Assembly (NCBI RefSeq): GCF_002005465.1
Contig: NZ_CP014691.1
Coordinates: 1,240,001 to 1,304,000 of the forward strand
DNA: 64,000 bases
From: Neoasaia chiangmaiensis
Lineage (GTDB): Bacteria; Pseudomonadota; Alphaproteobacteria; Acetobacterales; Acetobacteraceae
Direction of reading: 5' to 3'
Numbering within the stretch: position 1 is the stretch's first letter; the number at the start of each line of letters is the position of its first letter. The position numbers were made by a program, and so were the translations under genes. This document shows positions 59,274-61,961 of this stretch, one piece after another. The notes under the pieces are model-generated. The model saw nothing but the letters and a program-made list of their open reading frames with translations, was not told the DNA's origin and did no database searches.

Positions 59274-59333
59274 CACCGGCGCCAGCCGCTCGAATTTCCG
59301 TCTTTTTCTCCGACGCGAAAACCTGAGCGCGCG

Positions 59334-60419
59334 TCAACCTGCCGCGCGCAACGGGTCGGCTTCCGTCCGCAGGATGTCGATCGGCGTCAACACACCGTCG
59401 CGCTCGAAATGCCAGAACGTCCAACCGTTGCAGGACGGCGCATTCGTCAACTGCGCGCCCAGCTTATGGATCGAGCCGCGTTGCGCCCCTGAAACCAGTG
59501 TGCCATCGGGCGTCACGGTGGCCCGCAAGCGACGTTGACGATCGAACAGGGTCGTGCCCGCCGGCAGGGCACCCCGTTCCACGAAACTGCCGAACGGAAC
59601 GCGCGGCGCTTCCCGTTTGGCGGGCGTTATGGCCAGTTGCTCGTCCGGCAGGCGCACTTCACGATCCACACGTTCCTGTGCCGCTGCGATGTAATCGGGA
59701 TGGCGCTCGATGGCGACAAAGCGGCGCCCCAGCCGCTTGGCCATGGCCGGGGTCGTTCCGCTCCCACAGAACGGATCGAGCACGAGGTCCTCCGGCTGCG
59801 TGGAGGCCACCAGCACGCGATGCAGCAGGCTCTCCGGCTTCTGCGTCGGGTGCAGCTTCAGCCCGTGCGCGTTCTTCAGGCGCTCGTTCCCCGTGCAGAG
59901 CGGCAGATACCAGTCGGAGCGCATCTGCACGTCGTCGTTGAGGGCCTTCATCGCCTGATAATTGAAACGATACTTGCTCGCCGGTCCCCGCGCCGCCCAG
60001 ATCAGCGTTTCATGCGCGTTGGTAAAGCGCCGCCCCCGGAAGTTCGGCATCGGATTGGCCTTGCGCCAGACGATGTCGTTGAGAATCCAGAACCCGAGAT
60101 CCTGCATGATCGCGCCGAGACGAAAAACATTGTGGTAGGAGCCGATCACCCAGATCGTGCCATCCTTGTGCAGTAGACGCCGCGCTTCCGTCAGCCAGTC
60201 GCGCGTGAAGCGATCGTAGGTTTCGTAATCCGCGAACTTGTCCCAGGAGTCATCGACGCCATCGACAATGCTTTCATCCGGCCGACGCAACTCCCCTCGC
60301 AGTTGCAGATTATACGGCGGATCGGCGAAAATGCAGTCCACCTGCCCGCCGGGCAGCGCGCGCATGGTTTCCACGCATTCGCCACGCAGAATCTGGTCGA
60401 AAGGCATGTCGGACGTCAC
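59334..60419 (-). CDS. ccrM: CcrM-type DNA (adenine-N6) methyltransferase, GANTC specific
   Basis: The 361-residue beta-class methyltransferase has motif [14 protein letters not shown] at about residue 33, motif [20 protein letters not shown] later in the chain, [17 protein letters not shown], and a C-terminal RAMA-type domain ([20 protein letters not shown]). CcrM methylates GANTC late in the alphaproteobacterial cell cycle. The start is GTG 60419, overlapping the rnhB stop by GTGA, so the two are coupled. Confidence 0.96.
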
Positions 60420-61054
60420 GAGCAGGCAGCCTCCGCGCAGCAGGACAGATAATGACGCACCGGCGCGAAGCCGCGGCGATGATGCGGCGTCACGCCGACA
60501 TCACGCAGCCCCGCGAGATGCACAGCCGTGCCATATCCGGCGTTGCGTTCCCAGGCATAGGCATCGTGCCGTTGTGCCAGACGTCGCATGGCACGGTCGC
60601 GCACGACCTTCGCGACGATCGATGCCGCCGCGATGGAAAGGCTGAGCCTGTCTCCGCCGATGATCGTGACAGCATCGCATGGGAGTTCCGGCGCACGATG
60701 ACCGTCGACAAGCGCCGTTTTCGGTCGCGTGGGCAACCGCGCCACGGCGCGGCGCATCGCCAGATGGCACGCCTGCCCGATGTTGATCCGCTCGATCTCC
60801 GCAACGGAAGCCGCCCCCAGGGCGACCTCCACGTCAGCGGAGTTCAGCAGCGCATCGCAGGCCAGTTCGCGCCGCCGTGCGGTCAGACGTTTGGAGTCGT
60901 CGATGAGCGCGGCCAGTTCGGGCGATGGAATCCTGCGGAATATGACCGCCGCCGCCACGACGGGACCAGCCAGCGGGCCGCGTCCGACCTCATCCATGCC
61001 GGCGACGGGAACATCGGGAGCTCCATGCGCGGTCTCGTAAGTAAAGTCCGGCAT
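60416..61054 (-). CDS. rnhB: Ribonuclease HII
   Basis: From ATG 61054 (GGGAG 4-5 nt upstream) the protein has 212 residues: [20 protein letters not shown] with the catalytic Asp-Glu, [34 protein letters not shown], and [17 protein letters not shown]. It removes ribonucleotides from DNA. It is the upstream partner of ccrM. Confidence 0.96.
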
Positions 61055-61112
61055 ACCACTCCCACCGTCCGACATCACACGCGCCGCAGGGTCGACGCTG
61101 TTTCGATCTTCC

Positions 61113-61157
61113 GAATCGCTTTTGAATCAAAGCGATCGGGAAATCAAATGCCGATTC
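61113..61157. promoter_or_regulatory. Three GANTC methylation sites upstream of rnhB-ccrM
   Basis: GAATC at 61113-61117, GAATC at 61124-61128 and GATTC at 61153-61157 lie 59-103 nt before the rnhB start. In Caulobacter, ccrM expression depends on GANTC methylation state in its promoter. The cluster suggests the same feedback here. Confidence 0.55.
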
Positions 61158-61317
61158 GCTCGCCGGTGAAAAAAGCCATGCGATGGCGATGACCGGGCGG
61201 CGCAACGCATGGCGAACGTCAGCCCGCGATGTCGTCCCCCATCGAACGAGACATCAAACGTCACAAATCTTCCGGGCGCTTTTTGAAGTCCCGCTCAGAC
61301 TTGCGTTGCACAAAGAC

Positions 61318-61343
61318 AAAAAAACCCGCGCTTTCGCGCGGGT
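61318..61343 (-). terminator. Intrinsic terminator of the CsbD-like membrane gene
   Basis: Perfect arms ACCCGCGC (61324-61331) and GCGCGGGT (61336-61343) enclose a 4-nt loop. On the minus strand seven T follow. It lies 34 nt past the stop at 61378. Confidence 0.92.
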
Positions 61344-61377
61344 CGCAAAACAGGAAATAACCGGGCGTCGGGGTCGG

Positions 61378-61671
61378 TTATTTCTTGCGGCGGCTGAAGA
61401 AAATCGCGCCAATGATGGTGCCGATGACCGTCGCGATACCCAGCGAGATCAGCGGGCGGTCCTGCACGAAAGCCGTCGCGACTTCCAGCTTGCTTTCCGC
61501 ATCGTCATACAGATCCGCGAATTCCTGCTGCGCCATGCCGGAAAGCTGATCGACCTTCCCGCTGGCCTGCAGCCCCGCGTCCCCCGTCAGGCCGCCGGCG
61601 GCGTCCTTCACCTTGCCCTTGGCTTCGTCCAACAGACCTTCAGCTTTCTTGCCCGTGGTATCGCTCATCAT
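61378..61671 (-). CDS. CsbD-like protein with C-terminal membrane anchor
   Basis: The protein has 97 residues. The N-terminal half has CsbD-like repeats (AEGLLDEAKGKVKDAAGGL, TGDAGLQASGKVDQLSGMAQ). The C-terminus is one membrane span with a basic end (ISLGIATVIGTIIGAIFFSR). ATG 61668 is an alternative start. It may tether a stress-protective domain at the inner membrane, but no function is known. Confidence 0.85.
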   Translation of the reverse strand: MMSDTTGKKAEGLLDEAKGKVKDAAGGLTGDAGLQASGKVDQLSGMAQQEFADLYDDAESKLEVATAFVQDRPLISLGIATVIGTIIGAIFFSRRKK

Positions 61672-61961
61672 GTTCTCCCTTTTTCAATGGCCCACACGTG
61701 GTAATCTGCGAGCCTACGAAACGCAAACGAAGGGCCGGCAAAACGGTTTCCATGCCGTTCCGTCTTCACATTCGCAACAAACCGTCAGTCCTTTGCCATC
61801 TGTAACCACGCGTATGAATTCGTTGCGATATCTGAATTAGATTTTAGCTGACGCCATGTGCAGCACCGCCCAGATGTTTTATGAACAAGTCGCAAGGCGC
61901 GGCTCATGGCATAGCATCGCGCCAAGTTTCATGGCCCGCGTTGGATGGAAGACTGAACGAC

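Follow-up and report, generated by a model that had tools for sequence, protein, structure and literature searches.

A conserved cluster of CcrM target sites before the rnhB-ccrM operon of acetic acid bacteria, probably a methylation-reading promoter

Upstream of rnhB and ccrM in Neoasaia chiangmaiensis lies a cluster of GANTC sites, the expected target of the methyltransferase that ccrM encodes. The array is a real element, conserved before rnhB in acetic acid bacteria (AAB), and most likely a regulatory one. We judge it fairly probable that this cluster serves the rnhB-ccrM operon as a core promoter that reads methylation. Because its target sites cluster before its own predicted operon, CcrM probably controls its own production and, in AAB, that of RNase HII. 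Feedback of this kind had been proposed in an earlier note on this DNA, whose interpretation is partly supported overall.

Methylation control of ccrM is already known, whereas the architecture of the array and its place before rnhB in AAB look new. For Caulobacter, the accessible excerpts of two papers describe two GANTC in the ccrM promoter (PMC10073500), ccrM transcription linked to the hemimethylated state (PMC2217572, PMC10073500) and activation of hemimethylated ccrM by CtrA (PMC2217572). Among the literature searched, only PMC2877005 combines 'ccrM promoter', GANTC and methylation, and according to its accessible excerpt site counts allowed no derivation of methylation control; our searches returned no paper joining ccrM, rnhB and GANTC.

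Results

The GANTC cluster and the rnhB-ccrM operon

The window analysed is a stretch of 64,000 nucleotides (contig NZ_CP014691.1, positions 1,240,001 to 1,304,000), numbered here from its first letter. Read on the plus strand, GAATC at 61113-61117, GAATC at 61124-61128 and GATTC at 61153-61157 span 45 bp in total, confirming the earlier claim of three GANTC within 45 bp. The trio lies 5' of rnhB and ccrM, both on the minus strand, between a csbD-like gene and rnhB. The features are as follows.

59334..60419, minus strand: ccrM, GANTC adenine methyltransferase; PF01555 and RAMA; GTG start
60416..61054, minus strand: rnhB, ribonuclease HII; PF01351, 1.3e-38; start at a conserved ATG
61111..61139, minus strand: imperfect inverted repeat around site 2; 10/12 pairs here, 12/12 in L012, at most 8 in 14/18 rows
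61113..61117, minus strand: array site 3, GANTC; cGATTCg on the minus strand, which fits YGAKTCK, the extended motif for GcrA; at offset 30 relative to the -35 candidate
61119..61124, minus strand: putative -10 candidate CAAAAG; spacer 17; poor match
61124..61128, minus strand: array site 2, TGATTCA; invariant in 18/18 aligned rows; 11 bp to site 3
61134..61138, minus strand: array site 1, degenerate; CGATC here, GAATC in L012 and L013
61142..61147, minus strand: TTGATT, candidate for the -35 box, 19 bp ahead of site 2; weak, 4/6 against TTGACG
61153..61157, minus strand: private GANTC; 29 bp upstream of site 2; not shared at this position by the other 17 rows of the alignment
61323..61344, minus strand: terminator-like hairpin following the csbD-like gene upstream; marks the limit of the rnhB-ccrM promoter region

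Translation of rnhB probably starts at ATG 61054 and not at GTG 61078; the corresponding ATG is present in 30 aligned rows. With this start on one side and the hairpin (61344-61323) on the other, the upstream region comprises about 61322-61055. The GTG start of ccrM overlaps the rnhB stop by 4 nt (GTGA), as similarly in several relatives, and the 200 bp before CcrM residue 8 hold neither GANTC nor TTGAC. That rnhB is the first gene of an operon with ccrM, as the earlier note had assumed, was upheld at the level of sequence: the two appear to form one operon, and a promoter of another type may lie inside rnhB.

The identity of CcrM rests on PF01555 (N6/N4 methylase, 9.4e-63), a C-terminal RAMA domain (PF18755, 2.2e-14) and a match of residues 8-353 to residues 14-360 of the solved Caulobacter CcrM 6pbd (6e-146). 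NCBIfam model NF050803 (DnaMtaseCcrMCaul), by name a Caulobacter model, gave 618.1 bits, under its cut-off of 830. The genome holds further matches to the methyltransferase part of CcrM (L002-L006, at G000:C1:85830, 1855672, 3275658, 3310999 and 3352867), at 41-47% over 63-68 residues; three fall within 80 kb near 3.3 Mb. In the nearby sample at 3.25 Mb GC drops to only 44.5%, a hint that DNA was acquired there.

Density of GANTC and chance

The earlier note held that the cluster is denser than expected. GANTC is depleted in the window, with 114 seen against 302 expected from dinucleotide shuffles. We counted 769 sites (1.66 per kb) in a genome sample made of the window and 20 evenly spaced 20-kb stretches, together 464 kb or 13.6% of 3.41 Mb; the rnhB-ccrM cluster is its only triple spanning 45 bp or less. 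Uniform placement at 1.66 per kb predicts 1.47 such triples in 464 kb, so that a triple somewhere is expected and in itself unremarkable. For one given 179-bp promoter P is 0.00045, and dinucleotide shuffles of this promoter's own letters gave P = 0.028. The claim of excess density therefore holds for a promoter named in advance but not genome-wide. The density argument was set aside as not decisive by itself, and the case stands on conservation.

Allowing up to 3 mismatches, this genome has a single copy of a 20-mer of the array. An 18-mer, at up to 2 mismatches, matched in 17 of 150 family genomes. In 11 of these the coordinates place the match at rnhB-ccrM; in the remaining 6 all matches had 2 mismatches, and the reversed 18-mer, used as control, gave 4 matches.

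Conservation of the array in acetic acid bacteria

CcrM was found in 142 of the 150 family genomes. We read 141 loci, 114 of which had an rnhB match; the 27 that did not include the incomplete stretches L047, L063 and L080. A tree of 113 RnhB proteins (L100 left out) placed this genome in a clade of 17 rows with support 100/96, and a pair of GANTC spaced 10/11 bp stands before rnhB in all 17, two sets of which are near-copies (L019/L020 and L023/L024). Per-locus dinucleotide shuffles gave 0.21 expected pairs. Triples were present in 12/17 rows against 0.23 expected, and GANTC totalled 66 against 18.4 expected. The rest of these 17 loci, 66 kb in all, contains 121 GANTC but no pair of 10/11 bp and no triple. 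Mapped on the tree, the 10/11-bp pair (24 rows) needs 4 changes, compared with 22.1 in shuffles. The figures for the tree-defined clade of 17 are the least biased that we have, and they show that the array before rnhB is a real, conserved element. Lack of conservation was the refuting condition named in the earlier note, and the array withstood it.

What is conserved is not the trio first noted. Sites 2 and 3 belong to the array shared by the clade, while the site at 61153 is private to this genome and site 1 has become CGATC here (61138-61134). An alignment of 18 rows on site 2 has TGATTCA in 18/18, with frame and flanks reading TGATTCAnAAnCGATTCG. Named examples of the array come from Gluconobacter wancherniae, G. 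morbifer, Brytella acorum and Asaia bogorensis. Acetobacter and its neighbours keep many GANTC (7 in Acetobacter cibinongensis, 3 in A. suratthaniensis, 5 in A. fallax) at different spacings.

Such invariance could reflect an ordinary repressor or activator operator, TGATTCA-N4-CGATTCG, that merely contains GATTC, methylation being irrelevant. Site 2 is always GATTC and its fixed flanks (18/18) go beyond what CcrM needs, and the element is present once in the genome. Across AAB and other Alphaproteobacteria, however, GANTC stays while flanks and spacings change, and N varies at the other sites. An operator would also require GANTC to have arisen by accident at the gene of the GANTC methyltransferase, and in both of the promoter places described below. 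We hold this explanation to be unlikely.

The inverted repeat at 61111-61139 raised another candidate, a stem-loop in the leader RNA acting on translation or termination, to which GANTC would be incidental. The stem is a perfect 12 bp in L012 and has 10/12 pairs here; taking the 18 rows together, 60% of cells pair, compared with 22-46% after sliding, and the 91-nt leader folds with z = -1.75 (8/200 shuffles equally good). Yet only 4/18 rows keep at least 9/12 Watson-Crick pairs, and the GANTC sites are kept; palindromic GANTC letters would by themselves yield some pairing; and 59300-61800 has no Rfam match at gathering score. The hairpin was set aside since its stem is kept in so few rows, and we consider it very improbable.

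Two places for GANTC sites around rnhB and ccrM

At least two GANTC lie in the 150 bp directly before ccrM in 42/79 named loci. We compared the region before rnhB with the gap between rnhB and ccrM in 173 usable loci of 221, the other 48 being dropped because they had no same-strand rnhB or insufficient sequence. The family and named sets share species, and only identical stretches were merged; the labels 'AAB' and 'Roseomonas-like' were assigned from matching named loci. At least two GANTC occur before rnhB in 34/34 AAB loci, a set drawn up from CcrM identity after the arrays had been seen, against 15/139 other loci. Six loci that fall among AAB on the tree and were counted as other (L044, L085, L052, L058, L048 and L079) have 1, 1, 2, 2, 3 and 0 sites before rnhB, respectively.

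From the rnhB stop to CcrM residue 8, AAB loci have 17-94 nt, compared with a median of 97 nt in the other 139. Among these 139, at least two GANTC were found in the gap in 49, in both places in 3 and in neither in 78; the last figure indicates that the feature is dispensable. Pairs spaced 9-13 bp, counted over distinct loci, follow the same division: 28/33 before rnhB in AAB against 0.4 expected, 30/124 in the gaps of the others against 1.4 expected (never more than 5 over 60 rounds), and 1/131 before rnhB in the others against 0.7 expected.

Within the family, a putative TTGAC/GANTC promoter occupies the gap in 20/23 Roseomonas-like rows, 0/27 AAB rows and 4/64 of the rest. The 27 AAB rows all have at least two GANTC before rnhB, and their rnhB-ccrM gap is short or absent; 24 of the 64 remaining rows have GANTC in neither place. 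The comparison with other Acetobacteraceae thus bears out a cluster kept before rnhB in AAB but not one shared by the family, as Roseomonas-like members carry theirs before ccrM and others carry none.

In some distant alphaproteobacterial loci (L204, L228, L231 and L234) the gap before ccrM holds 4-8 GANTC within about 125 bp. The upstream stretch GANTCATGATTC comes from this group; in it a site abuts the presumed -10 box.

Promoter geometry

Offsets of GANTC from TTGAC were determined in the gaps of 130 loci, taken with 60 nt of the rnhB end. GANTC stands at offset 8 in 13, offset 10 in 30 and offset 19 in 18 of these loci; mononucleotide shuffles gave 0.02 for offset 8 and 0.06 for offset 19, and the count at offset 10 is given without a shuffle. 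TTGAC with GANTC at offset 7-10 or 19 was present in 52/130, and xATxxT followed at the distance of a -10 box in 38 of these 52, a count without shuffle control. If TTGAC is a -35 box, these fixed offsets mean that the gap promoters of ccrM hold GANTC in the spacer between -35 and -10.

The array of AAB shares part of this geometry. All 18 aligned rows have a T 19 bp before site 2, with a second T right after it in 16, and since this is the same offset of 19, a promoter of the same kind can be proposed before rnhB. The boxes themselves are poor. Candidates for -35 before site 2 score 1-4 of 6, column counts over the 18 aligned AAB rows gave no xATxxT at the -10 distance, and a sigma-70 scan of 61000-61450 found 0 promoter-like sites. 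GANTC between -35 and -10 is thus seen in other Alphaproteobacteria, and in AAB is suggested by geometry only, with weak boxes; the array of AAB may lie in the core promoter.

A conserved, promoter-like element TTG[CA]nn-N14-ATG[GC][TC][TC]T was observed before rnhB in L027-L029, L031, L032, L034-L039, L048 and L180.

A promoter of this form underlies a rival reading. AAB and neighbours would use TTGCnn-N14-ATGGTTT, and the GANTC array would fall within the transcribed leader, near +8 and +19; methylation there, or a protein bound to it, would influence promoter clearance. The feedback would still hold, with sites outside the -35/-10 spacer. The element fits 13/170 distinct upstreams (12 family rows and Acetobacter fallax), against 0.00 per round of mononucleotide shuffles. 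Of the 48 GANTC in these 13 upstreams, counted from the start that the element implies, 0 lie at -40..+1, 24 at +2..+51, 17 at -41..-59 and 7 at -82..-106. Both GANTC sites of Caulobacter ccrM are reportedly located in the leader. This reading was preferred until the TTGAC geometry was found, and then became a rival. Against it, the gap promoters of other Alphaproteobacteria hold GANTC inside the spacer at fixed TTGAC offsets, the T of AAB stands exactly 19 bp before site 2 in every row with T next in most, and 0 of the 13 matches belong to the clade of 17 that includes this genome. A leader position of the sites now appears doubtful, if less so than the operator.

Regulators and replication

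The candidate reader of such a promoter is GcrA. According to the accessible excerpts of the papers cited, GcrA binding depends on GANTC methylation (PMC3667746), and its extended motif is YGAKTCK, a preference not found in Brevundimonas (PMC7987155). Also by excerpt, GANTC between -35 and -10 accompanies one class of cell-cycle timing, and of the cell-cycle start sites with GcrA enrichment only 31% have a GANTC in the 50 bp upstream (PMC4287350). GcrA is encoded in this genome (100.1 bits against a cut-off of 26.9; match to GcrA 7ye1 at 4e-21) and in 144/150 family genomes. The extended motif fits at 61113 and, on the opposite strand, in the flanks of 61153; it does not fit at 61124 (TGATTCA). 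GcrA may read the array, and the array sites in AAB are predicted to be methylated by CcrM. A second GcrA-like stretch at G000:C1:2144978-2145226 (L010; 39.3 bits) has three internal stops; it could be a gene copy in decay or a frame that arose by chance.

A regulator of this genome scored 318 bits with the CtrA model NF045991, below the cut-off of 350 of a model tuned, by its name, to Rhodobacter, and we therefore call it only CtrA-like. This gene and gcrA have one GANTC each within 350 bp before the start of the match, so that no array is seen there. The rnhB-ccrM promoter contains no CtrA box TTAA-N7-TTAA within 1 mismatch. For the 18 aligned AAB rows we scanned with a CtrA half-site and a DnaA consensus; at up to 1 mismatch, CtrA boxes were found only in L033 and DnaA boxes only in L016, L021 and L026.

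Two MucR/Ros homologues are encoded at G000:C1:932521-932880 and 1668347-1668706 (166.9 and 163.3 bits). Proteins of this type offer a further explanation, in which one of them shields the array from CcrM and leaves it hypomethylated, as at the Caulobacter MucR targets described in the excerpt of PMC5172544. The same excerpt states that functions of hypomethylated promoters are generally not conserved, whereas this array is, and PMC7987155, in its accessible part, offers no MucR consensus for comparison. Occlusion seems to us quite improbable, more so than the operator and less so than the hairpin.

About 0.54 Mb separates the locus from the origin region, where GC skew flips between 1.72 and 1.89 Mb and which we take to be marked by mnmG at 1.84 Mb. 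If the terminus is the other GC-skew flip (0.36-0.53 Mb), rnhB-ccrM is about 40% down its replication arm and would thus be hemimethylated from mid-replication until CcrM acts.

Discussion

Our best reading is that a GcrA/CcrM methylation-responsive promoter serves rnhB and ccrM together in AAB, and only ccrM in other lineages. The presumed ccrM promoter of many Alphaproteobacteria would take the form TTGAC-N3..5-GANTC-N6..8-GANTC, often followed by xATxxT as -10 box. In AAB, rnhB and ccrM form a tight or overlapping unit with no such promoter between them, and before rnhB stands an array of matching geometry, with offset 19 for site 2 and offset 30 for site 3. Full methylation by CcrM, as opposed to hemimethylation after the passage of the fork, would alter the engagement of GcrA and RNA polymerase at the promoter. 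Replication of the locus would then license a pulse of transcription, which CcrM would close by remethylating the array, and RNase HII would be produced in the same pulse as CcrM. The sign of the feedback would on this account be negative, the pulse being licensed by hemimethylation and closed by CcrM; the opposite sign, with GcrA activating on methylated DNA, is nearly as likely.

The Caulobacter crescentus ccrM promoter is the closest parallel, as it too places GANTC sites at the promoter of the GANTC methyltransferase gene. That promoter is activated by CtrA, while the one studied here has no CtrA box within 1 mismatch; likened by description, the array differs further in its invariant flanks and its place before rnhB, which brings in RNase HII. 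Promoters that depend on GcrA and CcrM, among them Caulobacter ctrA P1 and mipZ, likewise have GANTC in or beside the core promoter, as far as excerpts describe them. The cluster resembles them in the YGAKTCK context of two of its three GANTC sites and in the presence of a gcrA gene, but its most conserved site, TGATTCA, is without the last K, and its spacing is 10/11 bp. Dam sites (GATC) also occur in tight clusters that are read collectively, such as those read by SeqA or Lrp. Enzyme and site differ there.

More tentatively, and with clearly less confidence than we place in the promoter itself, the methylation-reading promoter could be a module that follows ccrM across Alphaproteobacteria and that, when the two genes fused in AAB, ended up before rnhB. 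The removal of ribonucleotides and RNA primers from DNA by RNase HII would then join DNA methylation in one self-closing pulse licensed by replication, and a spacing of about one helical turn could make the switch cooperative. In AAB the module may either have moved or have arisen anew.

Self-limitation of CcrM outside Caulobacter has been little studied, as far as the literature searched shows, and the usual explanation for the control of ccrM, a CtrA box, is missing in this promoter. A fixed GANTC geometry at the presumed promoter driving ccrM, in two places according to lineage, yields a prediction at the level of sequence. If it is true, acetic acid bacteria would also have RNase HII tied to their cell cycle.
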